Source: Sanguibacter gelidistatuariae (GTDB lineage Bacteria; Actinomycetota; Actinomycetes; Actinomycetales; Cellulomonadaceae). From it: 64,000 bases of DNA. The notes below the pieces were generated by a model. It did not search any database. It saw only the letters and a program-made list of their open reading frames with translations, and was not told the origin of the DNA. Position numbers and translations under genes: made by a program. Positions 23,788-44,066 of the stretch are shown here, piece after piece. The stretch's first letter is position 1. Each line of letters begins with the position of its first letter. Where the stretch lies: the NCBI RefSeq assembly GCF_900096585.1, contig NZ_FMYH01000007.1, positions 1 through 64,000 of the forward strand, given 5' to 3'.

Positions 23788-23920
23788 GTGGCCGATGGTG
23801 TGTGCGGGAGGCCTGGGCGTGCTTGTCGGTCGTGCCTCCCGCTGCGGTGTGCCGCGGGAGTCTGGTTTCCTCGTCACCATGTGGGACCCCCTCGGCAGGT
23901 CCCACTGCTCCATTGTGATT

Positions 23921-23932
23921 GAAATCGATTTC
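23921..23932. promoter_or_regulatory. LacI-type operator 1
   Basis: GAAATCGATTTC, a perfect 12-bp palindrome centred on CG, about 245 bp upstream of the DUF4185 gene. It is the first of six related sites in the carbohydrate locus. Confidence 0.75.
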
Positions 23933-24104
23933 GGCTAAAGTTGGCCCCAGGCAACGAGGCGCCTAAGCGATCAGGGGGATGGGCCTGGCGCGCATCAGGC
24001 GGATCGGCCCAGGTTGGCCCTGGGATCCGGCGCGCGCTCCATCGAGAGACCCGGCGCCGGGAGGTGCGTCGTGTTTGATCGCACGGCACACGCACTCTCG
24101 TTGT

Positions 24105-24116
24105 GAAATCGATTAC
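24105..24116. promoter_or_regulatory. LacI-type operator 2
   Basis: GAAATCGATTAC inside TGTGAAATCGATTACATC, a variant of the same palindrome with one changed position, about 60 bp upstream of the DUF4185 start where it could cover the promoter. Confidence 0.7.
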
Positions 24117-24177
24117 ATCCGGTTCGATGGCGAACAACGCCACGTCGTCGCGCCCATCACAAGGAAGTGAGAGGGGC

Positions 24178-25359
24178 ATGAGGACATCTCGAAGCAGCAG
24201 GAGCAGACCCACCAGACGCATGCGCGCAGGCGACGGAGCCGTCGCCGGACTCCTTGCCGTCGGCGTCATGGTGGCCGCAGCCGGATCGTCGACGGGTGAG
24301 GCCGACCAGCCGGGACAAGCAGGACAGGCATGGTCCGGGGGATACTCCCATCCGAGCGCGGTCCGTCTCGTGAGCCAGCTCACCGGGGCTAAGGGGCTCA
24401 CCAATACCATGGACACGTGGCGGATCGGAGGGACCGACCTCGGTCTCATGTGGGACAATGGAGCCGGCGAGGTCCTCTTCGCCGTGGGCGACACGTTCGG
24501 AGACTGGAGCGGTGACGGAGGAAGCGGCGGGGACTGGCGGTCCAACGCACTCCTAAGATCCGACAACCAAGACTTCCGGGAGACCGGGATGACGTTCTCC
24601 TCAGCTGCGACGACGGAGTCTGGCTCCGCCAAGGAGATCATCCCGTCGCTCAAGGTCCCCGGCGTCGAGCACACGAGCATCCCCACAGGCGGCATCGCCG
24701 TCGACGGACGCCAGTACCTCGCGTTCATGTCGGTCAACAGGTGGGGCGACCCAGGGGAGTGGTTCACCAACTACTCCCGCATCGCGTACTCCGACGACAA
24801 CGGGACGGCCTGGAACGCGACCGACGGCCCGCAGTGGGACAACGACCCGCAATGGGGCGACAAGTTCCAGATGGTCGCGTTCACCCACGGCCAGGACGAC
24901 GGCTACGTCTACATGTACGGCACCAAGAACGGACGCTTCGGAGCCGTTCATGTCTCACGGGTTCCCGCGGCCTCGATCCTCGACAAGGCCGCTTACACCT
25001 ACTGGGACGGCACCTCCTGGGGCGAGGACGAGACCGCCGCCGCCGAGCTGGCGCCTGCACCGGTCACGGAGATGTCGGTGCAGTACAACGACTACATCGG
25101 CCGATGGATGATGATGTACACGACCGACTCCCAGGAGGAGGGCATCTACGACCTCCTCTTCCGCACCGCGGAGCGCCCTGAGGGGCCGTGGTCCGACGTG
25201 ACGGTCGTGGGCACGTCAGTCGACTTCCCCGGGCTGTACGCGCCGTACCTGCACCCGTGGAACGACGGGCCCGAGGTCCACTTCACGATGTCCATCTGGG
25301 GCCCGTACAACGTGTTCCAGTTCGCCTTCACCCTCGACGAGGACGGCAAGGTCGTCTAG
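24178..25359 (+). CDS. Secreted DUF4185 protein (GH183-related), C-terminal part lost to a stop codon
   Basis: 393 residues from an ATG with AAGGAAGTGAGAGG upstream. An Arg-rich N-terminus and a hydrophobic stretch (GAVAGLLAVGVMVAAAG) form a signal sequence. The mature part is a DUF4185 domain: WRIGGTDLGLMWDNGAGEV, VGDTFGD, WRSNALLRS, IPTGGIAVDGRQYLAFM and WDNDPQWGDKFQMVAF, expected as a five-bladed beta-propeller. Some DUF4185 proteins are endo-D-arabinofuranases (family GH183) that cut mycobacterial-type D-arabinan, but DUF4185 is broad and the substrate here is inferred. It ends GKVV-stop, and homologous-looking sequence (PNLIEDPHL) continues in the same frame, so the TAG probably truncates a longer, anchored enzyme. 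Two LacI-type operators lie upstream. The catalytic domain seems complete. Confidence 0.78.
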   Translation: MRTSRSSRSRPTRRMRAGDGAVAGLLAVGVMVAAAGSSTGEADQPGQAGQAWSGGYSHPSAVRLVSQLTGAKGLTNTMDTWRIGGTDLGLMWDNGAGEVLFAVGDTFGDWSGDGGSGGDWRSNALLRSDNQDFRETGMTFSSAATTESGSAKEIIPSLKVPGVEHTSIPTGGIAVDGRQYLAFMSVNRWGDPGEWFTNYSRIAYSDDNGTAWNATDGPQWDNDPQWGDKFQMVAFTHGQDDGYVYMYGTKNGRFGAVHVSRVPAASILDKAAYTYWDGTSWGEDETAAAELAPAPVTEMSVQYNDYIGRWMMMYTTDSQEEGIYDLLFRTAERPEGPWSDVTVVGTSVDFPGLYAPYLHPWNDGPEVHFTMSIWGPYNVFQFAFTLDEDGKVV

Positions 25360-26143
25360 CCGAACCTCATCGAGGACCCGCATCTGGCCAGGTCCGCGGA
25401 CGTGAGGCACCCGGTGTGGGTCTGCCAGGGCTCGTGCGGCGTCGACACCAACCCCGGCTGGGCGTACGGCGGCATCTTCCAGGCCTGGATGCGCGGGTCC
25501 TCGGGTCGGATCGGAATGCACCAGGAGGTCGCCGTCGTCACGACAGAGATTGCGGCCAGCCCAGGTACAAGCGCTACCAGGTCGCCGTCAACTCCGGCGA
25601 CCGCGAGAGCATCCAAGCCTACGTGGGCGCGAGCCCGCAGGGTTATCGCTGGGTGCAGGCGAGCGGGTTCTCGCTCGTGCAGACAGCTCCAAGCAGTCCT
25701 CAGACCGCCACAGTCATCTCTCCGACGAGGCTGGTCACTCCGACCTGCGGTGTCGAGACGAGCGTCGACATGCCGCAGGACGTGGCTGGGGTCGCCTACA
25801 CGTCCTCGCGGGAGGGCGCGACTGTCACAGCCGCCGCGACACCGACAGCAGGCTACGTGCTCGGAGTAGGAGCGGAGGCGAGCTGGACCTTCGACGTGGT
25901 CGCGATGCCGTGCGCCACGCTGGACCCGCAGGAGACCCCGGGCACGACGCCTCCGGCTGCGACGAGCCCAGTGCGGTGAACCCGGCAGCTGCAAATCCTG
26001 GCACGACACCACCGGTGACGAGTGCGGGTGGGGCGGCGGGCGGCCTGACAGCGACAGGCGCAGGTGTGACTGCCGTGAGCATCGTCGCGGCGCTCCTCCT
26101 GCTGGCAAGTCTGTGGCTGCGACGCCGGGCAGCACGTCCCTGA
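25360..26143 (+). pseudogene. Disconnected C-terminal part of the DUF4185 protein (carbohydrate-binding-like region and membrane anchor)
   Basis: After the TAG at 25357, the same frame reads PNLIEDPHLARSADVRHPVW and GGVDTNPGWAY-like text (actual: CGVDTNPGWAYGGIFQAW), resembling the start of a CBM4/9-like ligand-binding module. Near 25550 the reading moves to another frame (RYKRYQVAVNSGDRESIQAY, WVQASGFSLVQ), and near 25950 to a third, which ends in a Gly/Thr-rich linker, one hydrophobic helix (GVTAVSIVAALLLLASLWL) and a basic tail RRRAARP, a C-terminal wall or membrane anchor. One nonsense codon and two frameshifts separate these parts, so the anchored form cannot be made. Confidence 0.7.
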
Positions 26144-26170
26144 GGGGCTGACCCGTTCCAGCCCCCTCAC
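26141..26170. terminator. Hairpin after the DUF4185 remnant
   Basis: Inverted repeat TGAGGGGCTG / CAGCCCCCTCA with one bulged base, directly after the TGA that closes the anchor remnant. Confidence 0.5.
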
Positions 26171-26243
26171 GGTCCGGGGAGGGCGCCGTCGTCTGTGTCG
26201 GGTCGAGACCCCGGCGACGCCCACGGCCGTCCGACGGGCACGA

Positions 26244-26277
26244 CGAAGCCCCGGATCCATGCGGCTCCGGGGCTTCG
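26244..26277. terminator. Bidirectional hairpin terminator
   Basis: 12-bp perfect inverted repeat (26244-26255 and 26266-26277) with a 10-base loop, between the DUF4185 remnant and the convergent isomerase-GH116-kinase operon. Confidence 0.75.
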
Positions 26278-26300
26278 CATTGCGGCCTCAGCCCGGACCG

Positions 26301-27935
26301 TCAGACAGAGACGTCGCCGACCAGGTGGACCTTGATCCCCATCGTGTCGAACATCGCGGCCTTGGCGACGAGAGCCTTGTCCGCAGTCGCGGCGTCGGGG
26401 GCGTAGACGAGCTGGGCGTGGTTGGCCTTGTGGCGCGCCATGAACTGGTTGCGGCTGATGCCGTGCAGTACCACGTGCGCGATCGGCCACTCTGGGTTGG
26501 TCGCGTCCTTGCGCCGCTGCGTCTCAGCCTCGGGCAGCTCTGCGACGGTTCCGCGGAACAGGTCGGCCTGGAGGACATCGTCAGCGATGTAGACCCGGGA
26601 CAGGACGATCTCTCCTGGACGGCTCACCCCGTTGACGGTCGAGCCCCCCGCAGGGAAGAACACGGGGTCCTGGCGCCACCCCTCGGCCTTGTCCCAGCCA
26701 CCGAGGTGCGAGGCAGGGACGGAGCCGGAGATCTCGTAGACCCAGACGAACTCGTCGGCGTAGTCCTCACCCCAGCGCACGTCATGGAGCGTGTTGTCCG
26801 GGACCAGGCCCATCGCTGTCCACACCCGGTCAGTGACCAAGGTGTCGACGGCCACGCCCTCGTCGGCTTCGTTGAAGTGGGGGAGGGCGCGTCCCGCGTA
26901 GAGCTCTCGCGCGCCGTCGCGCGAGCGGACCGGGGGCCGCTGCGTCGAGTTGAGCATGCCCTCGGCCAGGTCGGAGGCAGGGACGAGGTCCTTGAGCCCT
27001 TGCTGGTACTGGATACCGACCGCGTCGAGGCCGAAGTCGTCGGAGATGCGCAGCGCAGCGACGTACATCTTCATCTGCCACTGCACCTGCGTGCGGGTGA
27101 GCTCGGTCGCGTCATCGGAGCCGAAGATGAACGTCATGCCTTGCTCGATGAGCCAGTCGAAGGCGGCATCGGCTTCCTCCTCGCTCACGGTGAGCATCTC
27201 TGCATACAGCGCCGACTGGGACAGCCGTTCCTTGTAGATGCCTGTCGGGTTGAGCAGCTCGTCGTCGAAGATGCCGTTGTACATGCCCATGCAGCCCTCG
27301 TCGAACACGCCGACTATCGCCTTCTCGGCGAGAAGCTGCTCGCCGAGCGCGACGCCCAGCTCCCGCTCCGGGCTTGCGGGCAGGTCGGGGAGCGGGCGCA
27401 CGTGCGAGGCATCGTGCGTAATGCGACCGGTATCGATCCACTCCGCGAGGCCCGCCCGGAACCAGTCGTCGGTGAAGTCGACCGACCAGATTGTCGAGTA
27501 CTCGGTGCCCATCTTCGTCATGCCAGCGTTGAGACCGAGCAGGCCGACAAGCCCGGGCCAGTCACCGACGAAGTTGGCGACGGTGAGGATCGGACCCTCG
27601 TGCGTGCGCAGGCCTGCCAGGACGTGGTGGGAGTACTGCCAGACCGCTTCGGCCACGATGAGCGGTGCGTCGACCGGGATGTTCCTGAAGACCTCGAGGC
27701 CCATGCGCTGGCTCGAGATGAACCCGTGACCCGTCGTCGGGTCGACGGAGTTCGCACGGATGACGGTCCAGCCGAGGTCCGCGAAGGCCGCCGTAACATC
27801 GGCCTCCATATGCGACTGGATCGACCAGCCGGCCACGTTGGCCGACTCCCGGAGGTCGCCGCTCGCGATGAGATAGGCGGTCCGGGGCGTCGTCGTGGGA
27901 CGCGCGGTCCGCTCGGGAAGGACGTAGCTGCTCAT
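26301..27935 (-). CDS. L-fucose/D-arabinose isomerase-like protein
   Basis: 544 residues of the FucI/AraA isomerase superfamily; FucI enzymes convert L-fucose to L-fuculose and D-arabinose to D-ribulose with a divalent metal. Family-like parts include GLDAVGIQYQQGLKDLVPAS, AEGMLNS (the position of a metal Glu in FucI), FNEADEGVAVDTL (the second acidic ligand region), and IAHVVLHGISRNQF with ARHKANHAQLVYA near the C-terminus where FucI has its metal His. The N-terminal third (ESANVAGWSIQSHMEADV) is divergent, and overall similarity is remote, so the substrate is not certain. It overlaps the GH116 gene by four bases and is the last gene of an operon kinase-GH116-isomerase. The kinase next to it fits a pentulose product. 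Confidence 0.68.
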   Translation of the reverse strand: MSSYVLPERTARPTTTPRTAYLIASGDLRESANVAGWSIQSHMEADVTAAFADLGWTVIRANSVDPTTGHGFISSQRMGLEVFRNIPVDAPLIVAEAVWQYSHHVLAGLRTHEGPILTVANFVGDWPGLVGLLGLNAGMTKMGTEYSTIWSVDFTDDWFRAGLAEWIDTGRITHDASHVRPLPDLPASPERELGVALGEQLLAEKAIVGVFDEGCMGMYNGIFDDELLNPTGIYKERLSQSALYAEMLTVSEEEADAAFDWLIEQGMTFIFGSDDATELTRTQVQWQMKMYVAALRISDDFGLDAVGIQYQQGLKDLVPASDLAEGMLNSTQRPPVRSRDGARELYAGRALPHFNEADEGVAVDTLVTDRVWTAMGLVPDNTLHDVRWGEDYADEFVWVYEISGSVPASHLGGWDKAEGWRQDPVFFPAGGSTVNGVSRPGEIVLSRVYIADDVLQADLFRGTVAELPEAETQRRKDATNPEWPIAHVVLHGISRNQFMARHKANHAQLVYAPDAATADKALVAKAAMFDTMGIKVHLVGDVSV

Positions 27936-30481
27936 GAGTGCTCCTGATGTGTCGGATCGGTGGCCGCACGCGACGCCGAGCAGGCGTCACCGGCCCAGAG
28001 GTGGACGGGGCCCGAGATCTCGTGGCCCCGGAGAAGGAGACGGTCTGCCCGGAGCGAGCCGCCGTCGACGTGGATCGTCAGGGTGTCGCCGTCGACGTCG
28101 ACGCGACCCCAGGCGTTCCCCGTCGTGAACAGCGCGCGCAGCGGCTCAGGGCCGATCGGGTCAAACGACAGTGTGCGGCTGGGCGCGTCCCACTGAGCGC
28201 CGGTGAACGCGAGCAGCAACCCCCACGAGGCGAGCGAGCGAGCGTAGTGGTTGCCGCACTCGATCTCGTTCCACGGGCTGCGTGCGTGCCCGTCATAGCG
28301 GGCCCGCAGCGTCCGCTCGATCGTGAGCGCGGCGTCGGGCAGGCCGGCGAACGCCAGGGTCGTCGCCACCTGGTGCTCGACCCCGGTCCACACCTCGTCG
28401 GAGTAGACGAAGGGGATCGCCGGACGCCCGCCCCGTGGCCAGGACGCGAGCAGGAGGCCCCCCTCGCCGTCGACTGCATACACCCTCTGGGTGCTCTCGT
28501 GGCGAGTGAGGTCCTCACGGAAGTTGTGCCTGACGATAGCCTCGAGCGCGCTGCGCACATGCTCGACGGGCAGGATCGGCCCGAGACCGTTGACGTAGGC
28601 GTGGAACTGACCGAGCAGCTGGTCCGAGAGCACCCCCTCGCCGTACTGGTAGCGGTGCGCGTCGACGTCCTTGACCACCTGGCGGTAGTACTCGCCGTTC
28701 CAGAGCAGCTGGTCCATGCCACGCGCAGTGCGTGCGGCGATCGCGTCCCAGGCATCGGCGCGCTCGATCTCACCGAGGTGCCTCGCCATCCGGACACCGG
28801 CTCGCAGGGCTGCGAGGAACATCGAGTTCGCGAGGGGTTCGATCCCGTGGAACTCGATGTCGTACGTGTTGTGCAGCTGGCCGTCCAGCAGCCCGTCGCC
28901 ATCCCGATCCCACTCGCGGACCGCGTGGTCAAGGGTTTGCGCCGCCGCGGGCCACAGCTCGCGCAGGAACGTGTCGTCGCCGCAGAACCGCCACTCGCGG
29001 TGCAGGCGCAGGAACGTCCCGAGCTGGCCGTCTACCGCAGGGTCCATGAACCACCGAGGGCCGCCGAACACGCGGTTCGACCGGAAGGTCTGGGCGCCGT
29101 CGGAGCCGGTCTCGAGCAGGAGCTCCACCCGCCTGGCGCTGCGTTCGAGCGACGGGAACAACCATGCGACGGTCTGCGCATAGGACCACACGTGGGTGCA
29201 CGTCCCCTCGCACGACCCACCGTGGTCGAAGGACCCCTCCCACGCCGCCATGATCGGCCCCTCGCCGAGCTCGGTGTTCGGAGTCTCGACCACGAACACC
29301 GTGGTGGACCGGACCGCCGCGATGTTGGCCCCGACGGCATCGGCAACCACAGGGTCGAGAGTCCCGCCGTAGAGCGTCTCGACGAACGTGTCAGTCGCCT
29401 GCTCGAGTTCGCGCAGCCCACCGTGCAGGTACGTCGCAGCCGACCACGCGTCGGGCCACAGAGTCGCATAGTGGTTGCGCACGACCTCGTCGCGGTGCGG
29501 GTCGTCGAGGACGATGTGCCCCTGCCAGGCTCGGCGCCGGTTCGGGAAACTCCACGCGAGCACGAACTCGAACGCCCTGACCTCACCAGGCGCAAGGGTG
29601 TGCACGATCCCGAGAGAGCCTGTGCGTATCCGCGGCAACGTCTCGAAGAGCTCGTCCTCAGTGAGGTCCGTCCGAGTGTCGCCAGGCTGTGCAAAGAGTC
29701 CGCGCGGGCGGTCCTCGAGCGTGAGCCGAGGCTCGGCGTCGAGCCGTCCGTCCGCGGTCAGGTCGTCCCAGAACAGTCTGGGCCCGTCGGGCCAGAAACC
29801 TGTCACCCACTGCGGTTTGGCAGTGGTCGACGGATCCGTCGTCGTGAGGGAGAGCGTCCCGTACCCGGGGTCGTTCTCAGGGAGCCGGATACCGAAGTCG
29901 AGTCCTCGCACGTCACCCTCCTCGTGCCACCGCACGGTCTGCTGGGCACGCATGCCAAAGGGTCCCTCGCCCCGGCCAGCGGTGTGGCTCACGCTCCCCA
30001 CGACGGTGACGTCGACGGGGACCGGGCTGGGGTTGTGCACGGTGTAGCGCAGCACGGCGCCGGGGATACTCGACGCATCGGGGTCGAGGGGGACGAGCGG
30101 TGTGAAGGCCCGCAGCGAGACCTCGACGGGGAGGTCGCCATCGGTGAAGTCAACGTCGACGACCGGGTACTCTCCGCGCATCGTCGACCCTGCGAGACGG
30201 GGCAGACCAGCTAGCCTATCGAAGCCGTACCCGGCGTCGAGGTCGTGCGGCCCGTTGAGACGTGCCTCGAGCACGCGTGTGACCGGTGTGCCACCGGCCG
30301 GTGCCGCATGGATCGCGAAGAACGAGTACGGATTGAACCGGCCCTTGTCGGGAAGGTTCTCGAGCTCCCAGTCGCGGAGCTCCCCGCGCGCTCCGAGCGA
30401 GACGTTGCCCGTCCCGATGCCGCCGAGCGGGAACGCCGCACGGTCGGCCGTGTGGGGGATCGAGCGTGAACGGTCCGTCAT
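27932..30481 (-). CDS. GH116-type glycoside hydrolase (DUF608 plus GBA2-like N-domain)
   Basis: 849 residues. The N-terminal beta-rich domain begins AAFPLGGIGTGNVSLGARGEL, the hallmark of the family 116 N-domain. The C-terminal (alpha/alpha)6 domain (DUF608) contains CTHVWSYAQTVAWLFPSLER and HNTYDIEFHGIEPLANSMFL, the segment that holds the acid/base Asp in family 116. Known members are retaining beta-glucosidases, beta-xylosidases or glucosylceramidases. No signal peptide is present, so it acts in the cytoplasm on imported oligosaccharides. It is located between the FGGY kinase (3 bp gap) and the isomerase (4-bp overlap), one operon. Substrate specificity is not readable. Confidence 0.85.
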   Translation of the reverse strand: MTDRSRSIPHTADRAAFPLGGIGTGNVSLGARGELRDWELENLPDKGRFNPYSFFAIHAAPAGGTPVTRVLEARLNGPHDLDAGYGFDRLAGLPRLAGSTMRGEYPVVDVDFTDGDLPVEVSLRAFTPLVPLDPDASSIPGAVLRYTVHNPSPVPVDVTVVGSVSHTAGRGEGPFGMRAQQTVRWHEEGDVRGLDFGIRLPENDPGYGTLSLTTTDPSTTAKPQWVTGFWPDGPRLFWDDLTADGRLDAEPRLTLEDRPRGLFAQPGDTRTDLTEDELFETLPRIRTGSLGIVHTLAPGEVRAFEFVLAWSFPNRRRAWQGHIVLDDPHRDEVVRNHYATLWPDAWSAATYLHGGLRELEQATDTFVETLYGGTLDPVVADAVGANIAAVRSTTVFVVETPNTELGEGPIMAAWEGSFDHGGSCEGTCTHVWSYAQTVAWLFPSLERSARRVELLLETGSDGAQTFRSNRVFGGPRWFMDPAVDGQLGTFLRLHREWRFCGDDTFLRELWPAAAQTLDHAVREWDRDGDGLLDGQLHNTYDIEFHGIEPLANSMFLAALRAGVRMARHLGEIERADAWDAIAARTARGMDQLLWNGEYYRQVVKDVDAHRYQYGEGVLSDQLLGQFHAYVNGLGPILPVEHVRSALEAIVRHNFREDLTRHESTQRVYAVDGEGGLLLASWPRGGRPAIPFVYSDEVWTGVEHQVATTLAFAGLPDAALTIERTLRARYDGHARSPWNEIECGNHYARSLASWGLLLAFTGAQWDAPSRTLSFDPIGPEPLRALFTTGNAWGRVDVDGDTLTIHVDGGSLRADRLLLRGHEISGPVHLWAGDACSASRAATDPTHQEHS

Positions 30482-30484
30482 GGT

Positions 30485-31975
30485 CTACTCCTGCCTTTGG
30501 TGTGTCGCGAGCTCGTGCACGACGGGGACTGTCGCCTCGTACAGGTGCAGGAACCGGTCGAAGAGCGTGTCGTAGGTTGCGGCGAGGTCGCGGTCGGGGG
30601 TGATGCGGGTCGTCACCGGGTTCCACCGGACGATGTCGGGCTCATCACCGGGAGCCGCGACGGCGCTCGCGGCGAGGAACGCCGCCCCGTAGCTCGCCCC
30701 GATCGTCGTCGCGGGGACCTCCTGGACCAGACCGGTCACGTCAGAGACGATCTGGAGCCAGAGCCAGCCCTGGGTCCCGCCGCCTACGGCGACGATGCGC
30801 CGAATGTCTGCGCCTGCCGCCCGCATCGTCTCGACGTTGTGCCGGACTGCCAGCGCGGTGGCCTCGAGCGCGGCACGGAAGAGGTCGCCGCGTGTGTGGG
30901 TAAGCGTGAGTCCTGCGATGACGCCTCGAGCGTCGGGGTCGAGGATCGGCGTGCGCTCGCCAGCGAAGTACGGCAGCACGACGAGCCCGTGGGCTCCGGG
31001 TGGGGAGGCAGCCGCCTCGGCGAGCAGCTGGGGGAAGTCGGCGGACGTGAGGTCCTTGAGCCAGGCCGTGAGGGCGCCCGAGGTGGCGAGCCCTCCGGCG
31101 AGGTTGCGTGTGCCCGGGAAAGCGCCGACCGTCGTCCACATCGATGGTGTGCGCAGCGTCGTCCGACCCGTCGCGACGAGGAACATGGTGGTTCCGTACA
31201 TGAGCATGAGGTCGCCCTCGCCGTGCGCGCCGACGCTTACCGCTTCTGTCCATGCGTCGATGGTCCCGGCAATGACCGGGACGCCCGCAGGGATACCTGT
31301 CGGGGCCGAGGCCTCAGGAGTGACGGTGCCCGCAATCTCACCGGCCCACATGAGTCGTGGTGCCTCCAGGCCCGGTGCGTACCTGTCCCACCAGGCGTCG
31401 TGCCACCCCTCGGAGTCGATGTCGTAGAGCGGAGACATCTGGCTCGCCGACTGGTGGTCGAGCACGTAGGCACCTGTGAGCTTGCGTGCGAGCCAGGACG
31501 CAGGCATGAAGAGACGACGTGCCCGCGCGTACGCCTCGGGCTCCTCGTCGTGGACCCAGACGATCTTGGGGCCACCGGCCTGGGACGTGAGCATCGAGCC
31601 GCCGACGCGGGTGATCGCGTCCTCGCCGAGCTCAACTGTCATGCGCTCCGCTTGGGCTGTGGCGCGGGTGTCAACTCCGTAGAGGATCGCGGGCCGGACA
31701 GGCTCGTCGTGCTCGTCGGCGAGCAGGACGCACGGCCCCATGCCGCTGACGCCGACGGCAAGGAGCTCGACGTCGGCTCCGGTGAGCAGCTCGCGGCAGA
31801 GGTCGACGAGTTCGGACCACCACACGGCGCCGTCCATCTCGACGTGACCTGGAGCTGGCCTGGACACCGAGTGCGTGACCGAGGCTGACCGCAGGACTCT
31901 GCCGTCCGGTGTGACGAGGACACCCTTGCTACTGGACGTACCGATATCGATTCCGAGAGTGCAGTGCAAGGACAC
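30485..31975 (-). CDS. FGGY-family carbohydrate kinase
   Basis: 496 residues from the GTG at 31975, which has AAGGAGG five bases upstream. The N-terminal ATPase fold starts LGIDIGTSSSKGVLVTPDG; the YGVDTRA motif, the GTIDAWTEAVSVGA segment with the catalytic Asp, and GGGTQGWLWLQIVSDVTG with EVPATTIGASYGAAFLA are all FGGY features. Members phosphorylate pentuloses or related sugars (xylulose, ribulose, L-fuculose, erythritol). In this operon with a FucI-like isomerase, a ribulokinase-type role is the simplest reading. A perfect GAAATCGATTTC operator lies 58 bp upstream of its start, so it heads the operon and is probably repressed by the adjacent LacI protein. Confidence 0.87.
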   Translation of the reverse strand: MSLHCTLGIDIGTSSSKGVLVTPDGRVLRSASVTHSVSRPAPGHVEMDGAVWWSELVDLCRELLTGADVELLAVGVSGMGPCVLLADEHDEPVRPAILYGVDTRATAQAERMTVELGEDAITRVGGSMLTSQAGGPKIVWVHDEEPEAYARARRLFMPASWLARKLTGAYVLDHQSASQMSPLYDIDSEGWHDAWWDRYAPGLEAPRLMWAGEIAGTVTPEASAPTGIPAGVPVIAGTIDAWTEAVSVGAHGEGDLMLMYGTTMFLVATGRTTLRTPSMWTTVGAFPGTRNLAGGLATSGALTAWLKDLTSADFPQLLAEAAASPPGAHGLVVLPYFAGERTPILDPDARGVIAGLTLTHTRGDLFRAALEATALAVRHNVETMRAAGADIRRIVAVGGGTQGWLWLQIVSDVTGLVQEVPATTIGASYGAAFLAASAVAAPGDEPDIVRWNPVTTRITPDRDLAATYDTLFDRFLHLYEATVPVVHELATHQRQE

Positions 31976-32032
31976 GTCATCCTCCTTGATCAGGTGTCGC
32001 ACCAACGCCGGTGCAGACTGCCAGATTAGACG

Positions 32033-32044
32033 AAATCGATTTCA
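32033..32044. promoter_or_regulatory. LacI-type operator 3
   Basis: GAAATCGATTTC, a perfect palindrome, upstream of the kinase-GH116-isomerase operon and just downstream of the lacI-like gene. Confidence 0.78.
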
Positions 32045-32082
32045 GATGCAATCGCGCTAATTCGCGGTCAGGAGGGGGTAGG

Positions 32083-33072
32083 TCAGGAGGTGCGAGCGGC
32101 CGTCGCCGACTCCAGGGAAGAGGGCAGAACGACGGTGCGGGCAGGCTGGTGATCCCCTGCGATGCGCTCGAGCAGCTGGGTCGCGGCTGTGACGCCCATG
32201 TGCCGGGCGGGCAGGCGGACCACTGTCACGGCTGACGGGCTCAGCGTGGTGAAAGGCAGCGAGCCGACGACTGAGACCCCGAAGGCCGGCGGTGTGAGTC
32301 CATGTTCGGTGAGAACCTGGATCGCGCCGACTCCCAGTAGGTTGTTGCTCGCGACGACGGAGTCTGGCGGCTCAGGAAGAGCGAGCAGATCCTCCATGGC
32401 CTCTCGGCCTCCGTCGACCCGGAAGGTGGAATAGCGCAGCAGCTCGTCAGGGTCGAGGTCAGGCAGCCGCTGGCGAAGGATCGCGCGCCAGCCGTCGGCG
32501 CGCTCGTAGGCGGTCTCGACGTCCTGCGGGCCGGTGATGCAGGCGATGCGCCGGAACCCCGTCCGCACGAGGTTCTCGGTCGCGGCCTTGCCTGCGCGGA
32601 AGTTGTCCATGATGACGCGGTCGGTGTCGTAGTCGGTCTGTCTGTCGACAGTGACCACAGGCCGACCGGCCGTGAGGATGTCGTCGAGGTCAGATTTGTC
32701 TGATGCCGGAGCGAGGATGACGCCAGCCATGTTCTCCGAGAGCGCGATCTGGAGATAGGTCGTCTCCTTCTCGAGGTCGGAGTCGGTGTTGCACAAAACC
32801 ACCGAGTATCCGGCGCTCTGCGCGACGTCTTCGACGCCGCGGGCGAGCTCGGTGAAGTATGGGTTCTCGATGTCAGGGATGATGAGCGCGATGACCTCAG
32901 CGCTCTGCTTGCGCAGCGTCCGGGCTGCTCGGCTCGGGGTGAACCGCAGCTCGCGAGAGGCCTCGCGCACAGCGGCGACCTTCTCGACCGACACTCCGGC
33001 GCCGTTGAACACCCGGGACACCGTCGCGGGCGACACTCCGGCGAGCTTCGCGACCTCGTAGATCGTCGCCAT
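32083..33072 (-). CDS. LacI family transcriptional repressor
   Basis: 329 residues. The N-terminal LacI helix-turn-helix is MATIYEVAKLAGVSPATVSRVFNGAG in two parts (TIYEVAKLAGVSPATVSRVF followed by NGAG), with the hinge region RFTPSRAARTLRKQ. The periplasmic-binding-protein-like sugar-sensing domain spans the rest (VIALIIPDIENPYFTELARG, VILAPASDKSD, SVVASNNLLGVGAIQVL). It is located in the middle of the locus, and the six GAAATCGATTTC-type sites around it are typical LacI operators. It has GAAATCGGTTTC 64 bp upstream and may autorepress. Expected ligand: a sugar or sugar phosphate derived from the imported glycan. Confidence 0.92.
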   Translation of the reverse strand: MATIYEVAKLAGVSPATVSRVFNGAGVSVEKVAAVREASRELRFTPSRAARTLRKQSAEVIALIIPDIENPYFTELARGVEDVAQSAGYSVVLCNTDSDLEKETTYLQIALSENMAGVILAPASDKSDLDDILTAGRPVVTVDRQTDYDTDRVIMDNFRAGKAATENLVRTGFRRIACITGPQDVETAYERADGWRAILRQRLPDLDPDELLRYSTFRVDGGREAMEDLLALPEPPDSVVASNNLLGVGAIQVLTEHGLTPPAFGVSVVGSLPFTTLSPSAVTVVRLPARHMGVTAATQLLERIAGDHQPARTVVLPSSLESATAARTS

Positions 33073-33135
33073 GGGAATCCTGCTTCCTCGTCTCGGGCCA
33101 CGGTTGACACCACCGGGTACCCAGCCTACGATCTT

Positions 33136-33147
33136 GAAATCGGTTTC
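33136..33147. promoter_or_regulatory. LacI-type operator 4
   Basis: TTGAAATCGGTTTCAA at 33134-33149 is an extended 16-bp near-palindrome with core GAAATCGGTTTC. It lies in the divergent gap between lacI and the DUF2961/GH172 gene and can control both. Confidence 0.75.
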
Positions 33148-33209
33148 AATTTTACGGCAGCCTACTCAATCTGGCTACCGCCAAGCATCGACACGAGGAA
33201 GTGCCACTG

Positions 33210-34346
33210 ATGAACGTCCCCATGCCTCCCGACTTGGCCAGCGTATCGCGACTGCGTGGCACTCTCACGCGATCGATCTCACCAGAGAACTTCGACGGCT
33301 CCGCCGGAGGCGGCGGCCGTGCGACCGAAGGGACCGGCGCCGAGTGTGCCCGTGACCTCGGCCCCGAGTGGAAGATCTCCCCGAGCGTTGACATCAAGGC
33401 CGGGGAGACCTTCGACCTCGCCCGGATCGACGGTCCTGGCCGGATCACCCATATCTGGATCACCACGCACACCGACAACTGGCGCACACTCGTGCTGCGG
33501 GCGTTCTGGGACGGTGCGCAGGAGCCTGCGGTCGAGGTGCCCTACGGTGACTTCTTCTGCAACGGCTGGGGAGTGTTCGCCCAGGTCAGCTCTCAAGTCG
33601 TCGCAGCCAACCCGCACGGCGGGTTCAACTCCTACTGGCCAATGCCATTCCGCGAGGGCGCGCGGCTCACCGTCGAGAACACGAGCGACGTCGACGTCCG
33701 CATCTACTACCAGGTGACGTACGAGATCGGGGGCGACTACTCCGCTGAGGGCTACTTCCACGCGCAGTGGCGGCGCTCGAACCCGCTCGAGGAGCTGGCA
33801 ACCCACACGATCCTCGAGGGGATCGAAGGGCAGGGGCAGTACGTTGGGACCTACATCGCCTGGGGTGTGAACTCCAACGGCTGGTGGGGCGAGGGTGAGC
33901 TCAAGTTCTACCTCGACGACGATACGGATTACCCGACGATCTGTGGGACCGGAACCGAGGACTACTTCGGCGGCGCTTGGAACTTCGACATCCCTGGGCA
34001 GGGGTACACCGAGTTCTCGACCCCGTACCTCGGGATGCCTCAGGTCATCAGGCCCGACGGGCTCTATGTGAGCCAGCAGCGCTTTGGCATGTATCGCTGG
34101 CACCTGCTCGACCCGATCCACTTCCGTACAGGCATCCCGAAGGTTGACGTCCAGGCCTTGGGCTGGCGCAGCGGATGGCGCTACCTCCCGCTGCGTGACG
34201 ACATCGCCTCGACGGCGATGTTCTACCTCGACAGGCCCACGGCGCGCCGACCGAAGGCGCCCACGGCCGACGACATGGAGGTTCACCTAGGGACCGCTCC
34301 GGTGCCAGACATCGGTGCGACCCCGCCGCGGGATCCTCGGGGCTGA
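33210..34346 (+). CDS. DUF2961/GH172-family glycoside hydrolase
   Basis: 378 residues from the ATG at 33210 (GAGGA 11 bases upstream; a GTG at 33201 is possible but too close to the site). Family features: the N-terminal SISPENFDGSAGGGGRAT, GPGRITHIWITTHTDN, PYGDFFCNGWG, then GWWGEGELKFYLDDD and GTGTEDYFGGAWNF, which contain the conserved Glu residues expected for catalysis, and YRWHLLDPIHF. Characterised GH172 enzymes are exo-alpha-D-arabinofuranosidases or alpha-D-fructofuranosidases (difructose dianhydride I synthase/hydrolase); the fold forms trimers. No signal peptide is present, so it works in the cytoplasm. It is preceded by LacI-type operator 4 and transcribed alone. Confidence 0.88.
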   Translation: MNVPMPPDLASVSRLRGTLTRSISPENFDGSAGGGGRATEGTGAECARDLGPEWKISPSVDIKAGETFDLARIDGPGRITHIWITTHTDNWRTLVLRAFWDGAQEPAVEVPYGDFFCNGWGVFAQVSSQVVAANPHGGFNSYWPMPFREGARLTVENTSDVDVRIYYQVTYEIGGDYSAEGYFHAQWRRSNPLEELATHTILEGIEGQGQYVGTYIAWGVNSNGWWGEGELKFYLDDDTDYPTICGTGTEDYFGGAWNFDIPGQGYTEFSTPYLGMPQVIRPDGLYVSQQRFGMYRWHLLDPIHFRTGIPKVDVQALGWRSGWRYLPLRDDIASTAMFYLDRPTARRPKAPTADDMEVHLGTAPVPDIGATPPRDPRG

Positions 34347-34572
34347 CAGAGCCGAAGTAGCTGACATGACCGGACCGAGCTACGACGGAGTGCCCGCCGG
34401 GTGAGACCGCGGGCCCCCGCGCCTACGGGTGGCTTGCGTCGACCAGGTGACCACGGTGCTCACCCGCGAGCGACGGCGACCTGGAGCCGAGCTCATGGGT
34501 CGGCAACGGGGCGCTGTACGCCACGGCTGTCAGACGGGACAGGGTTCGCCGCGCACGGGTGGAGCGACATCC

Positions 34573-34668
34573 TCCGAGTCCGAGCTCTGGGACTCCGGAC
34601 GGGTATCCCAGAGCCAGGGCGCGGAACTGTTCAGGCGCGCGCCGCTGGTCTGGAGCCAGCGGTCTGAG
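34573..34668 (+). pseudogene. Short relic resembling the N-terminal domain of GH78 alpha-L-rhamnosidases
   Basis: Frame 1 reads SESELWDSGRVSQSQGAELF followed by RRAPLVWSQRSE, which resembles the LWDSGRV...YxGPxLxSxxRYxW block near the N-terminus of GH78 proteins. Nothing else of that 900-residue family is present: no start, no catalytic domain. The rest of 34347-34776 contains no readable gene. The call rests on about 30 residues. Confidence 0.4.
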
Positions 34669-34676
34669 TTAATTGT

Positions 34677-34688
34677 GAAATCGATACC
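34677..34688. promoter_or_regulatory. LacI-type operator 5
   Basis: GAAATCGATACC, a partial match with an intact left half-site, 89 bp upstream of the decayed Gfo/Idh/MocA gene. Confidence 0.55.
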
Positions 34689-34776
34689 GAGAAGCGAATG
34701 TGGACGACAGCCTTGTCGTGAAACACCGTCCGAGCGCCCTCGCGGCTCGCGTGGACGCCGACAAAGGAGTGCGTAC

Positions 34777-35835
34777 ATGATCGATGCCCTCGTTGTCGGC
34801 GGCGGGTTTGGCCGCAGCTTCCTCCACCCGTTCCAACTCCATCCAGAGGCGGGCACCGTGGGCCTCGTCGAGCCCGACCTCTGGCTGCGGCGTGAGCCCG
34901 TTGGAATGCCGTCCACGTGAACTCGCCTGCGTGGTGCCACGTCGAGCGCACCCTTGCCGTGCTCCGGTCCGGGGGGGGGTGTGCGAGCGCCGTGCCGATG
35001 GCCACCAGCCTCGTGGACGTCTTCCGTGGGAGGGAGGCGGCTGCGGCGGCCCGGGGCGCTACATGATGACGGAGGCCTCGCTCTACCAGCGTGAGTATCT
35101 CTACACCTGCCACCTGCGGTAGTCCAGGGCGCTTGGACGTCTCGGCTACCTCAGCGGTGCCCGCATGCAGGACCTCGACGGACTCCCGCCCTACTGGATG
35201 GGCTATTTGCCGATGCAGCACGCGATCCTTGTCGTGGCACCGTTGCTGGGTTTGGCGGGGGGAGCGGGCCAGCTCCGTCGCCTGTCTGGGTTCAGGCGTA
35301 CACCGTCCGCAGCGCGAGGGTGACGAGGCCAATCCGTTCCCCATCGAGACCGCCATCTTCACCCTCACGGGCAGGCGCTCCTTGCCGCGCAGATCGCGTT
35401 GTCGTTTTCCGAGGACGGCCGCGCCTACGCCGAGAGGTTCGAGGTATACGGCGACTTGAGGGGTGCTCGAGCGGCCCTCGATCGAGGGTGGACCGGCTGT
35501 CGTGTATGCGGCGGGTTCGCAGGATCAGGCGGGCCGTGGACGCCCGATCACGCGAGAGGAGGTCGAGGCGTCCGACAGTGCCGATCTCTTGCCGGAGCCG
35601 TTGTGCCTGTTGCCCGCCCTCGGTCTATGCCCCGCATGGACTGCCCGCGATCGAGGTTCCGGCTAGGCGCGGTGGATGCCATCCGCACCTTGTGTGCGAG
35701 CTCGTCTCGGCCGTTGTCGTCGACCGCGAGCCAGCCATCGGAGCGGCCCGCGCTGCCTCGATCGCGGCCGGGCGTCGCCGCGCACGAGTCGGCGCTGTTG
35801 GGCGGTCAGATGCTCGAGATACCCCAGTTCAAGGG
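34777..35835 (+). pseudogene. Decayed Gfo/Idh/MocA-family oxidoreductase gene
   Basis: Fragments of one NAD(P)-dependent oxidoreductase are spread over three frames in the correct order: MIDALVVGGGFGRSFLHPFQ (dinucleotide-binding start, ATG 34777 with AAAGGAG upstream), VERTLAVLRSG, RYMMTEASLYQREYLYTCHL, GRLGYLSGARMQDLDGLPPY, NPFPIETAIFTLTG, FSEDGRAYAERFEVYGDL, GGCHPHLVCELVSAVV and finally PGVAAHESALLGGQMLEIPQ. Several frameshifts and stops (for example a TGA at 34918 and a TAG near 35121) and a run of nine G at 34971-34979 interrupt it. It is preceded by LacI-type operator 5 and ends just before operator 6. The intact gene would probably have encoded a sugar or sugar-acid dehydrogenase of the locus. 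Confidence 0.8.
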
Positions 35836-35844
35836 CTTGCAGTT

Positions 35845-35856
35845 GAAATCGATTTC
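35845..35856. promoter_or_regulatory. LacI-type operator 6
   Basis: GAAATCGATTTC, a perfect palindrome, 116 bp upstream of the ABC-transporter substrate-binding protein gene. Confidence 0.78.
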
Positions 35857-35971
35857 GACTACCGTGGTGCCGGGTCGAGGGTGGCAGCGTAGCGAGCGCC
35901 CTCGAAGGGGTGGCCGAATTCCGCGGCCGCAGCGATGGCTCAGAGACGAGTCAGTTCCTGAGGAGGGACAC

Positions 35972-37342
35972 ATGAAGAGCAAGACAACACGAATGCGTAA
36001 GGCATCAGCCTTCGCCGCGAGCGTCGTGGGAATGTCCATGGTTCTCGCAGCATGCGGCTCGAGCACCCCCGGAGAGTCGGCGAAGACCGACGGCGGGGAC
36101 GGGTCGGCGACGACCATCGAGTTCTGGCACAGGACGTTCACTCCGGTCGAGAACGAGTGGTACGCGCAGGTCGTCAAGGACTTCAACGCCTCTCAGTCAG
36201 CGATCAAGGTCGTGGACACCGAGGTTCCCGCGGATACGTGGGACCAGAAGATGAAGGCAGCACAAGCTGCGGGCAAGGCCCCCGACGTCTACACCTACAG
36301 TGGAGCGCTCGTCGAGCAGGTGGATGCGGGCCAGTTCCACGCCCTCGAAGGGATCGTCCCGCAGGACAAACTCGACGAGATACTGCCCTCTGCGCAGTCG
36401 ATCTCGCAGGTCGACGGCAGCTACTACGCTTACCCGCTCCTCCTGGAGCCCCAGGCAGTCCTGTTCTGGAACAAGGACATGCTTGACGCTGCCGGGGTCG
36501 ACTCGACCAAGGCTCCCGCGACGTGGGACGACCTCTACGCCGCCTGCGCGAAGATCGTGCCGACCCTCTCCGAGGGGCAGTACTGCATCTCGCCCGCCGC
36601 CGACGCGGTGACCCTAGCCTGGGCGTCAGCCGGTCAGCAGTACAACGCCGCGGGGCACCTCGCCCTCACACAGGACTGGACTGCGCCGGACATTGACAAC
36701 CAGGGCTACCGCGACATCATGGGCTTCTACAAGGAGCTCTACGACCAGGGGTACATGCCGAAGCAGCCGCTCGGGTCCTACCTCGAGGCGAAGGACTACG
36801 GCGAGAAGAAGGTCGCCTTCAAGGTCTCCGGCTCGTGGATGATGTCCGAGGTCGGGTCCGACTACTCTGACCTGCTCGACGTGACAGGGCTCGGCCCGGT
36901 GCCGACGTCACCGAACGGCGACGGACGCACGACGACGACCGCCGGCAACTTCATGTGGGTCGTCGACGCCAAGTCGGACAATCCCGACGCCGCCGGAGAG
37001 TTCCTCTCTTGGGTGCTCGCGGGTGACCCCGAGGTCCTCGTCCCGTTCTTCGTCGACACGCAGTTCACCAAGTCGCCGGTGCGTCAGTCGGTCCAGGATG
37101 CTGTCGCGAAGACCGAGGCGGCAGCCGCCGCCCCGTGGTCGAGCGTCATCGTCAACGACATCGCCCCTGACGCCCACCCCGGCGCGACCTACCCGTGGGA
37201 CATCTCGCTCGCCGTCGGCACGGCGATCGAGTCGGCGATGAAGAGCGCGCAGTCGATCGACGACGCGATCGGTACAGCCTCTGGCTCGATCGACACGATC
37301 ATCCAGCGCGAGTCGCTCCCTGAGAAGGCACCGAAGCCCTAA
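35972..37342 (+). CDS. ABC sugar transporter, substrate-binding lipoprotein (family 1)
   Basis: 456 residues with a lipoprotein signal (lipobox VLAAC, Cys at residue 28), followed by an acidic linker. The mature part is an extracellular solute-binding family 1 fold: TTIEFWHRTFTPVENEWYAQ, WDQKMKAAQAAGKAPDVYTY, YPLLLEPQAVLFWNKDML, APATWDDLYAACAKI, FKVSGSWMMSEVG. The ATG follows GAGGAGGG. It is the first gene of the importer operon, under LacI-type operator 6. Substrate is likely the oligosaccharide released by the secreted DUF4185 enzyme or a similar glycan fragment. Confidence 0.9.
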   Translation: MKSKTTRMRKASAFAASVVGMSMVLAACGSSTPGESAKTDGGDGSATTIEFWHRTFTPVENEWYAQVVKDFNASQSAIKVVDTEVPADTWDQKMKAAQAAGKAPDVYTYSGALVEQVDAGQFHALEGIVPQDKLDEILPSAQSISQVDGSYYAYPLLLEPQAVLFWNKDMLDAAGVDSTKAPATWDDLYAACAKIVPTLSEGQYCISPAADAVTLAWASAGQQYNAAGHLALTQDWTAPDIDNQGYRDIMGFYKELYDQGYMPKQPLGSYLEAKDYGEKKVAFKVSGSWMMSEVGSDYSDLLDVTGLGPVPTSPNGDGRTTTTAGNFMWVVDAKSDNPDAAGEFLSWVLAGDPEVLVPFFVDTQFTKSPVRQSVQDAVAKTEAAAAAPWSSVIVNDIAPDAHPGATYPWDISLAVGTAIESAMKSAQSIDDAIGTASGSIDTIIQRESLPEKAPKP

Positions 37343-37415
37343 CCGGTCGGTCGGGCGGGGCAGTATCGCTGCTCCGCCCGACCCCGCTCGCTCGAGACAC
37401 AGGACGGACGAGGAC

Positions 37416-38387
37416 ATGACGACGAGGGAACGACCGGCCCCGCAGGCCGCGCGCGTGGAGTCCAGGAAGACGACACGCGCTGAGACCGGGAAGAAGAATG
37501 GACGGAGCAAGAACTTCGAGTATCGGGACAACAAGATCGCCTACCTCATGCTGACGCCCGTCGTCGGCCTGCTCGGCGTGTTCGTCATCTGGCCCGCGGT
37601 CTACGCCGTGATCCTGTCCTTCCAGGACTGGAGCTTCTACAAACCCGCAGTGAACGTCGGCTGGCGCAACTACATCAACGTCGCGACGGACCCGCTGTTC
37701 CTCGAGACGATCACCCGAGGGTTCAAGTTCGTCCTCATGACCGTGCCGACGATCCTCGTGTTGGCGTTCTTCTTCGCCAGCCTCGTGATGAGCGTGGGGC
37801 GCAAGGCCTCGACGACGCTCAAGGTGAGCATCTACATCCCGACGATCATCTCGGGCGTCATCGCCTCGATCCTGTTCGTGCTCATCTACGACTACTCCGG
37901 AGGGCTCCTCAATTGGGTTCTCGCTCACTTCGGCGTCGAGAACATCCCGTGGCTCGGTGACCCGGCGTGGGCGCTCCCCGCTATCGCCGTGCCCGCAGTG
38001 TGGCTCGGGCTCGGTCTGCCGGCTCTCATCATGGTTGCTGCAATGCTCGATATCCCGACGGAGTACTACGAGGCGGCCTCGATGGAGGGGGCGAATTGGT
38101 GGGAGAAGACGCGGTACATCACCCTGCCGCAGATGAAGAACGTGTCGCTATACCTCATCGTCACAGGGTTCGTCGGAGCGATCCAGCAGTTCGAGCTTCC
38201 GCTCGTCATGACTCAGGGTGGTCCGCTCTCCTCGACGACCCTGCCTAACCTATTCATCTTCAACCACTTCCGGAACGACATCAACGTCGGGTACTCGATC
38301 GCGGCGGCGCTTCTGCTGTTCGTCGTGCTCGGGACTGTCTCGGCGCTCATCTTCCGGTTCATCAACTCCGAGAGGCTGGTGGACTGA
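37416..38387 (+). CDS. ABC sugar transporter permease, MalF/UgpA type
   Basis: 323 residues with six membrane helices after a basic N-terminal extension of about 35 residues. The EAA loop reads EYYEAASMEGANWWEKTRYI followed by TLPQM, the site that contacts the ATPase. It starts with an ATG after GGACGAGGAC, 73 bp downstream of the binding-protein gene. It forms the channel with the MalG-type permease. Confidence 0.92.
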   Translation: MTTRERPAPQAARVESRKTTRAETGKKNGRSKNFEYRDNKIAYLMLTPVVGLLGVFVIWPAVYAVILSFQDWSFYKPAVNVGWRNYINVATDPLFLETITRGFKFVLMTVPTILVLAFFFASLVMSVGRKASTTLKVSIYIPTIISGVIASILFVLIYDYSGGLLNWVLAHFGVENIPWLGDPAWALPAIAVPAVWLGLGLPALIMVAAMLDIPTEYYEAASMEGANWWEKTRYITLPQMKNVSLYLIVTGFVGAIQQFELPLVMTQGGPLSSTTLPNLFIFNHFRNDINVGYSIAAALLLFVVLGTVSALIFRFINSERLVD

Positions 38388-38388
38388 C

Positions 38389-39270
38389 GTGACCGTCGCT
38401 GAGCAGACCCGTACCACTCGCAGTGCCGCCGGACGTGGGCAGCTCCGGAGCATCCGGTCGGTCCTCCTCCTGGCGGGGAAGGTCGTCGTCGCAGCAGGAT
38501 TTGTCCTCGCGGCGCTCTTCCCGCTCGCCTGGCTCGTCATCGCGGGCTTCAAGTCACGGACCGAGGTCGTCGCGACCCCGTTCCAGTTCTTCCCCGACGT
38601 GTGGCAGTGGCAGAACTACACCCACATCCTCAGCGACCCGGCATTCCTCAGGGCGATGGGGTGGACGATGCTCGGCGCCGTGCTCTTCACGGTTCTCGGG
38701 CTCGCCGTGAACTCGCTCGCGGCGTACGCGTTCGCACGGCTCAACTTCCGCTTCAAGAACGCGATGTGGATCCTCGTCATCACGACGATGTTCATCCCGG
38801 GCATGACGATCCTCCTCACGAGCTTCATCGTCGTGACGAAGCTCGCGATGCTCGACACCCTGGCGGTCCTCGTGCTGCCCGGGGCTGCAAGCGCCGCCAT
38901 GGTGTTCTTCATCCGGCAGTTCTACCTAAGCATCCCGTCGAGTCTCGAAGAGGCTGCTCAGCTTGACGGGTGCGGACGCTTCGGGATCTTCGTCAGGTTG
39001 TTCCTCCCGCTGTCGAAGCCGCCGTTTGTCGTCATGGGAATCACTGCGTTCCTCGCGTACTGGAATTCCTACGTGTGGCCGATCCTCACGATCACGAGCC
39101 CAGACCGGTTCGTCATCCAGCAGTACCTCGCGACGTTCCGGTCTGAGAGGACGACGGAGCTCGGGATGCTCATGGCAGGCTCGGTGCTCGCCGCGGCGCC
39201 GGTGGTCATCCTGTTCCTCATTTTCCAGCGGCAGATTATCGGCAACATCAAGATGGCTGGGCTCAAGTAG
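38389..39270 (+). CDS. ABC sugar transporter permease, MalG/UgpE type
   Basis: 293 residues from the GTG at 38389, one base after the stop of the MalF-type gene. Six membrane helices; the EAA loop reads LEEAAQLDGCGRFGIFVRLF followed by LPLSKPP. No ATPase gene follows: the operon ends here. The importer therefore must borrow a shared MsiK-type ATPase encoded elsewhere, as is usual for sugar importers in Actinobacteria. Confidence 0.92.
   Translation: MTVAEQTRTTRSAAGRGQLRSIRSVLLLAGKVVVAAGFVLAALFPLAWLVIAGFKSRTEVVATPFQFFPDVWQWQNYTHILSDPAFLRAMGWTMLGAVLFTVLGLAVNSLAAYAFARLNFRFKNAMWILVITTMFIPGMTILLTSFIVVTKLAMLDTLAVLVLPGAASAAMVFFIRQFYLSIPSSLEEAAQLDGCGRFGIFVRLFLPLSKPPFVVMGITAFLAYWNSYVWPILTITSPDRFVIQQYLATFRSERTTELGMLMAGSVLAAAPVVILFLIFQRQIIGNIKMAGLK

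Positions 39271-42407: not shown

Positions 42408-44066
<1,659 letters not shown>

Follow-up and report, generated by a model that had tools for sequence, protein, structure and literature searches.

A probable, partly worn D-arabinan utilisation locus, likely of Microbacteriaceae-like origin, in Sanguibacter gelidistatuariae

The contig NZ_FMYH01000007.1 of Sanguibacter gelidistatuariae (Cellulomonadaceae; assembly GCF_900096585.1) carries a gene cluster for a GH183 (DUF4185) protein, a GH172 (DUF2961) protein, a GH116 protein, a FucI/AraA-like isomerase, an FGGY kinase, a LacI-family regulator and an ATP-binding cassette (ABC) importer. We analysed this locus within the first 64,000 nucleotides of the contig (hereafter, the window). 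It belongs to a D-arabinan utilisation type already published in 2023, the route through D-ribulose-5-phosphate included (PMC10509167), and the copy in the window is partly worn. To this we add a set of operators, a probable transfer, gene erosion and an isomerase family of which neither member searched matches an NCBIfam model.

Gene content and the three hydrolases

The original prediction, made from the sequence alone, had placed all of these proteins together, and Pfam scans recovered each of them in the positions given below; the predicted start of the GH183 gene at 24178 also coincides with a likely ATG. Two features of the layout had been missed, a stop after the GH183 catalytic domain and an oxidoreductase remnant between the GH172 gene and that of the substrate-binding protein (SBP). 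The features of the locus are as follows:

23920..23933, + strand: LacI-type operator upstream of GH183; 1 mismatch to TGWAATCGATTWCA; genome-wide scan
24104..24117, + strand: LacI-type operator, 60 bases 5' of the GH183 ATG; 0 mismatches
24178..25359, + strand: GH183 (DUF4185) endo-D-arabinanase, catalytic domain only, ending at an in-frame TAG; Pfam 360.6 bits, cut-off 39.5
25360..26143, + strand: eroded 3' end of GH183; tblastn with GH183 C-termini of relatives, three-frame reading
26301..27935, - strand: FucI/AraA-fold isomerase, proposed to convert D-arabinose to D-ribulose; Pfam, AlphaFold2 model, Foldseek
27932..30481, - strand: GH116 exo-beta-D-arabinofuranosidase (ExoMA2 orthologue), presumed cytoplasmic; 1352.7 bits to 8ic6
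30485..32005, - strand: xylulokinase-like kinase of the FGGY family with an uncertain start codon, proposed to be a D-ribulokinase; Pfam, TIGR01312
32031..32044, - strand: LacI-type operator 5' of the kinase-GH116-isomerase unit; scans, equivalent position in relatives
32083..33072, - strand: LacI-family regulator; Pfam, best NCBIfam RbsR
33135..33148, + strand: LacI-type operator between the divergent lacI and GH172 genes; scans, equivalent position in relatives
33201..34346, + strand: GH172 (DUF2961) exo-alpha-D-arabinofuranosidase (ExoMA1 orthologue), presumed cytoplasmic; 800.3 bits to 8ic8
34676..34689, + strand: degenerate operator 5' of the oxidoreductase remnant; 3 mismatches
34780..35830, + strand: Gfo/Idh-type oxidoreductase gene remnant, homology across three frames; tblastn with L031 and L052 proteins
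35844..35857, + strand: LacI-type operator 5' of the SBP gene; window and genome-wide scans
35969..37342, + strand: substrate-binding lipoprotein (SBP) of the ABC importer; SBP_bac_1 92.1 bits, lipobox by eye
37416..38387, + strand: ABC importer permease 1; BPD_transp_1, 84% identity over the part present in L004
38218..39270, + strand: second permease of the ABC importer, which probably starts near 38380; BPD_transp_1, 75% in L004, 77% in L005

The GH183 open reading frame called in the Pfam scan spans 24103-25359 (+), and its GTG at 24103 overlaps an operator; the ATG at 24178 is the probable start. The SBP frame spans 35399-37342 (+), with the lipoprotein start near 35969, judged by eye in the translation. 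The right flank carries genes for a beta-lactamase-fold serine hydrolase (40872-42251) and a phosphoglucose isomerase (42408-44066).

In phmmer searches, the best PDB chain was 8ic8, an exo-alpha-D-arabinofuranosidase, for the GH172 protein (800.3 bits), 8ic6, an exo-beta-D-arabinofuranosidase, for the GH116 protein (1352.7 bits) and 8hhv, an endo-alpha-D-arabinanase, for the GH183 protein (319.7 bits). According to PMC10509167, these chains are ExoMA1, ExoMA2 and EndoMA1 of Microbacterium arabinogalactanolyticum; the 8ic8 stretch is present letter for letter in the locus of that species in our comparison (L015). Identical residues account for 327 of the 370 aligned between GH172 and ExoMA1 (88.4%), 602 of 838 between GH116 and ExoMA2 (71.8%) and 164 of 328 between the GH183 catalytic domain and EndoMA1 (50%). 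Of the residues published as catalytic or substrate residues, we checked 13, one from ExoMA1, four from ExoMA2 and eight from EndoMA1, and all are kept: the GH116 protein retains the catalytic E431 and D557 and the specificity residues H446 and R483 of the GH116 subfamily 4 exo-beta-D-arabinofuranosidases, and the GH183 protein retains the catalytic D33, D51 and E243 and the substrate residues R198, W138, P141, L292 and Y293. The GH183 tree has a fully supported split (100/100), with the window protein and EndoMA1 on the same side. The three proteins are thus close orthologues of biochemically characterised D-arabinan enzymes, which supports the D-arabinan interpretation of the original prediction. 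That GH116 is an exo-beta-D-arabinofuranosidase orthologue, and that the locus type had been published, the original prediction was not aware of.

The GH172 family also includes a difructose dianhydride I synthase/hydrolase, and the window protein matches 7v1v at 123.2 bits, so that a fructofuranose or difructose dianhydride (alphaFFase-type) locus had to be considered, as the original prediction had done for fructofuranose. However, the match to ExoMA1 reaches 800.3 bits, and the protein keeps Asn253 of ExoMA1 (Asn, not Gly), a residue that blocks binding of alpha-D-fructofuranose and sets specificity for alpha-D-arabinofuranose (Araf) according to PMC10509167; the GH183 and ExoMA2-type GH116 proteins also indicate D-arabinan. 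The GH172 protein is of the exo-D-arabinofuranosidase type, and on the identity to ExoMA1 and Asn253 we rejected the fructofuranose reading, to which we assign a negligible probability.

The GH183 N-terminus appears signal-like by eye, and the presumed localisation of the locus proteins follows PMC10509167 and their N-termini, inspected by eye. The polysaccharide utilisation locus (PUL) of M. arabinogalactanolyticum (MIAR_33170-33320; PMC10509167; L015) likewise encodes GH183, GH172 and GH116 enzymes, an SBP-type ABC importer, an isomerase and a kinase. Both loci have the core order LacI-kinase-GH116-isomerase with GH172 divergent, with identities of 79% for the isomerase, 75% for the kinase and 71% for LacI, and the operator word of the window also lies 5' of the kinase and of LacI/GH172 in L015. 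In contrast, the window carries one GH183 gene, where M. arabinogalactanolyticum has four, and this gene has no C-terminal domain and is found on the opposite side of the isomerase gene; the window host is also outside the Microbacteriaceae by ClpC. In M. arabinogalactanolyticum, D-arabinose and mycobacterial extract induce the GH183, GH116 and SBP genes, and GH172 mildly (PMC10509167). Candidate DUF4185, GH172 and GH116 proteins have been reported in Cellulomonas sp. 73-145 (PMC10509167), which may be taxonomically closer and was compared by description only. The GH172 and DUF4185 enzymes of PUL42 of Dysgonomonas gadei act on mycobacterial D-arabinan too (PMC10115798), although this host belongs to the Bacteroidota, and PMC10509167 separates gram-positive from gram-negative PULs. 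Among the literature searched by title and the start of the abstract, no further description of an actinobacterial D-arabinan locus was found.

A shared LacI-type operator

The palindrome TGAAATCGATTTCA precedes the GH183 gene (two sites), the kinase-GH116-isomerase unit and the SBP gene and occurs in the lacI/GH172 gap; a degenerate copy lies 5' of the oxidoreductase remnant. Since this word was read off the window's own sites, related loci served as the independent test. They were obtained in a scan with the isomerase, which revealed at least 595 related stretches, the best 80 of which were compared. In the window, eight matches with up to three mismatches were found against 0.96 +/- 0.93 expected, six of them inside the locus; the two outside, at 42024 and 63300, have three mismatches each. 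Genome-wide, the word occurs with at most one mismatch at six places, five of them in the locus, and the reversed control word gave no match at this threshold. In the related loci, 109 sites with up to two mismatches were distributed over 53 of the 80 loci, leaving 27 without a site, while of nine control words, the reversed word had 0 sites and none of the eight permuted palindromes had more than 1. Split by hydrolase content, the loci with operators comprise 22 of the 27 that have D-arabinan hydrolases and 31 of the 53 that lack them.

The LacI regulator has RbsR as its best NCBIfam model (180.2 bits, far below the cut-off of 531). We infer its pairing with this operator, as well as the identity of its inducer; the words 'LacI' and 'repressor' do not occur in the main text of PMC10509167.

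The isomerase, the kinase and related loci

The isomerase matches the Pfam domain Fucose_iso_C just over the cut-off (29.8 against 29.3 bits) and Fucose_iso_N1 under it (18.8 against 28). Neither this protein nor its L015 homologue, the two family members searched, matches an NCBIfam model, and the window isomerase has no sequence match in the PDB at an E-value of 0.001. Profile comparison with Escherichia coli FucI gave a probability of only 12.4%, and a fold model was used instead. The AlphaFold2 model, built on a shallow alignment (45 sequences, effective number 1.7; hhalign), has a mean predicted local distance difference score of 91.0 and a predicted template modelling (TM) score of 0.91. 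Foldseek returned 41 PDB matches at E <= 0.001 with 10-16% identity, all of them L-fucose, D-arabinose (3a9r) or (L-)arabinose isomerases, among them 6k1f (E 5.6e-20, TM-score 0.53, root-mean-square deviation (rmsd) 22.7 A). The protein thus models as a FucI/AraA fold, in agreement with the original prediction, and this fold is common to the isomerase of the E. coli fuc operon (FucI/FucK/FucA; 1fui, E 1.9e-19, Foldseek), although identity is 16%.

Three residues of the isomerase, E356, D385 and H506, are invariant in all 45 aligned sequences and lie, by eye, in motifs resembling the surroundings of E337, D361 and H528 of E. coli FucI, which we take to be metal ligands. MAFFT aligns FucI H528 with H506, but E337 with D340 and D361 with H353. 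The proposed substrate is D-arabinose. The kinase contains both FGGY_N and FGGY_C (Pfam), and of the three E. coli kinases compared, a partial XylB is the closest (28.9%), followed by FucK and AraB. We infer both D-ribulose as its substrate and D-arabinan oligosaccharides as the cargo of the importer.

The original prediction had taken the lack of a FucA-type aldolase to fit entry of the sugar as D-ribulose-5-phosphate. No such aldolase was found among the locus reading frames scanned, another difference from the fuc operon, and an L-fucose route was rejected on this ground; the genome has three Aldolase_II genes elsewhere, so that the claim stands for the locus. Two of them (G000:C13:144498-145037 and 134660-135241) are found further along this contig, ~95-105 kb past the locus; the former, the one gene of the three that was classified, is under the cut-off for all 25 NCBIfam models shown, FucA models included. 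Entry as D-ribulose-5-phosphate is published for this locus type (PMC10509167), and the specificities of the window isomerase and kinase are presumed to follow it.

D-arabinan hydrolases exceeded our thresholds in at least 27 of the 80 related loci, a lower bound because five Streptomyces GH172 proteins (60-63%) fall under the threshold and some contigs end nearby. In other related loci, transporters of the Tct or ribose type and a DHDPS-family gene are found close by (one member per cluster of neighbour genes was scanned). LacI, kinase and isomerase genes without D-arabinan hydrolases occur near Tct-type transporter genes in L003, L008, L022, L038 and L066, with a DHDPS-family gene in addition in L008, L038 and L066, which suggests a second use for the LacI-kinase-isomerase module beside such transporters. 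In the D-arabinan loci of Microbacterium yannicii and M. timonense (L004, L005), no kinase homologue lies within the stretch examined, ~10 kb on each side of the isomerase, unlike many other loci, in which the kinase lies between LacI and GH116 or the isomerase. A 1088-aa DUF2961 protein is encoded near the isomerase in Micromonospora (L074:13052-16318), with kin in four more Micromonospora loci.

Loci of this kind, in which isomerase homologues, kinase and LacI genes have ribose-type ABC or Tct-type transporters and DHDPS-family genes as neighbours but no D-arabinan hydrolases, together with the xylulokinase-like kinase, raise the possibility that the isomerase and kinase serve a free sugar (L-fucose, D-xylulose or another pentose) and that the hydrolases are mere neighbours. 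In the window genome, however, one operator, nearly confined to the locus, is common to all units, GH116 separates the isomerase from the kinase within what appears to be a single unit, and the FucA-type aldolase is missing from the locus frames scanned; we therefore consider a free-sugar module improbable.

Probable transfer, erosion and the proposed D-arabinan route

The neighbouring ClpC was compared with 18 named, hand-chosen genomes. Its identity is 87-90% with Cellulosimicrobium, Isoptericola, Promicromonospora, Actinotalea, Georgenia and Segeticoccus, 80-83% with Brachybacterium, Micromonospora, Arthrobacter, Nocardioides and Saccharomonospora, and 78-80% with the five Microbacteriaceae genomes. 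In the ClpC tree, the nine-row set to which the window belongs is supported (96/97) and contains no Microbacteriaceae. Phosphoglucose isomerase was uninformative as a taxonomic marker, with best matches of 61-66% in each of 11 of 20 genomes (not found in the other nine), and ClpC was used instead.

The locus proteins, in contrast, are nearest Microbacteriaceae. GH172 is 90% identical to Microbacteriaceae, against 79.0% to Actinotalea and 82.4% to Promicromonospora; of six host-genus genomes, that of the window alone has it, and across the host family it is present in 14 of 150, again counting the window. The isomerase is 82% identical to Microbacteriaceae, the best among the matches listed, and of the 150 host-family genomes 19 have a match (including the window), with full-length copies reaching at most 74% and a 134-residue fragment 76%. 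The isomerase tree, built from 40 of the 80 loci by a quick search with Shimodaira-Hasegawa-like approximate likelihood ratio tests (SH-aLRT) and no bootstrap, places the window in a starred 16-row set with 15 Microbacteriaceae (SH-aLRT 99). Five of the 20 Microbacteriaceae rows fall elsewhere, which implies that the gene moved or was duplicated more than once. In the trees of GH172, GH116, LacI (best 44 of 45 rows) and the kinase (best 44 of 55 rows), a Microbacteriaceae row is nearest the window, with no starred branch in any of the four; the GH116 tree cannot test transfer because it contains no rows from the host's relatives. The G+C content is 66.8% in the locus and 69.7% in the rest of the window. 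Since the locus genes are nearest Microbacteriaceae while the neighbouring ClpC is nearest Cellulosimicrobium/Actinotalea-type genomes, transfer is the simplest reading, and the locus was probably acquired horizontally from a Microbacteriaceae-like donor.

The GH183 frame stops at the TAG at 25357-25359, right after the catalytic domain. Downstream, C-terminal domains of the L004, L005 and L006 proteins match in the same frame (53-55% over 60 residues) and, further on, in another frame (38-47% over 45-68 residues), so that relics of a carbohydrate-binding-like domain lie in two frames beyond the stop. According to PMC10509167, this C-terminal domain is confined to the closest EndoMA1 homologues; it is missing from the open frame, in which all seven binding residues examined (of 10) are absent. 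The eroded tail reads LTATG-hydrophobic-RRR, wall-anchor-like by eye, and the three relatives L004, L005 and L006 end differently. Between GH172 and SBP, at 34780-35830, the L031 and L052 oxidoreductases match in pieces in three frames (28-56% by piece; tblastn); these proteins themselves have weak Gfo/Idh-type NCBIfam matches, all far under the cut-off. The locus has probably lost the GH183 C-terminal domains and the accessory oxidoreductase, unless assembly error created these lesions.

With GH183 cut after its catalytic domain, the oxidoreductase dead, the adjacent operator degenerate and one GH183 gene instead of four, the locus could be decaying and no longer degrade D-arabinan polymer, at most scavenging oligosaccharides freed by others. 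Against this stand the intact GH183 catalytic residues, the two good operators upstream and the open frames of the importer and cytoplasmic enzymes; moreover, DUF4185-only truncated constructs from other bacteria are active (PMC10115798). We hold such decay to be unlikely.

The locus is very probably a D-arabinan utilisation locus of the M. arabinogalactanolyticum type, probably acquired from a Microbacteriaceae-like donor with subsequent loss of the GH183 C-terminal domains and the oxidoreductase. Several observations weigh against this. The GH183 protein is truncated and sits on a long branch (0.41) in its tree, so that endo cleavage may now be slight or absent. At the thresholds used, isomerase homologues lack D-arabinan hydrolases in 53 of 80 loci, so that the isomerase is not tied to D-arabinan. 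Its fold matches are partial, and because TM-scores are 0.42-0.55 and rmsd values 22-24 A over full alignments, its domains probably match known folds better than the whole chain. The best NCBIfam model of the kinase is the xylulokinase TIGR01312 (303.6 bits, cut-off 380.25). Finally, no importer ATPase was found among the locus frames scanned; there are two OB_MalK matches elsewhere in the genome, one barely above the cut-off.

In the proposed D-arabinan route, a secreted GH183 endo-D-arabinanase would cleave mycobacterial arabinogalactan or lipoarabinomannan, and the ABC importer would bring in the D-arabinan oligosaccharides. In the cytoplasm, GH116 would take off beta-D-Araf caps and GH172 alpha-D-Araf units; the isomerase would convert D-arabinose to D-ribulose, and the kinase would phosphorylate this to D-ribulose-5-phosphate for the pentose phosphate pathway, with the LacI regulator governing all units via the single palindromic operator. 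The target glycan is probably foreign to the host because its genome has no match to the arabinosyltransferase family PF04602, which was found in one of 14 control genomes (Corynebacterium glutamicum).

With this locus, the published D-arabinan loci gain a member that was probably transferred, and a further exo-alpha/exo-beta enzyme pair becomes available for the dissection of glycans of the mycobacterial cell wall. The operator common to 53 of the 80 related loci gives a testable regulatory hypothesis, and the isomerase belongs to the family of at least 595 related stretches without an NCBIfam match in the two members searched. More speculatively, a D-arabinan locus may have moved from Microbacteriaceae into a Cellulomonas-like lineage in which a polymer degrader is becoming a scavenger: the endo-enzyme would no longer have the parts that bind substrate and, apparently, anchor it to the wall, whereas uptake, exo-cleavage and the breakdown of D-arabinose would be kept under one operator. 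The isomerase would then stand for a large, so far uncharacterised D-arabinose isomerase family of the Actinomycetota.

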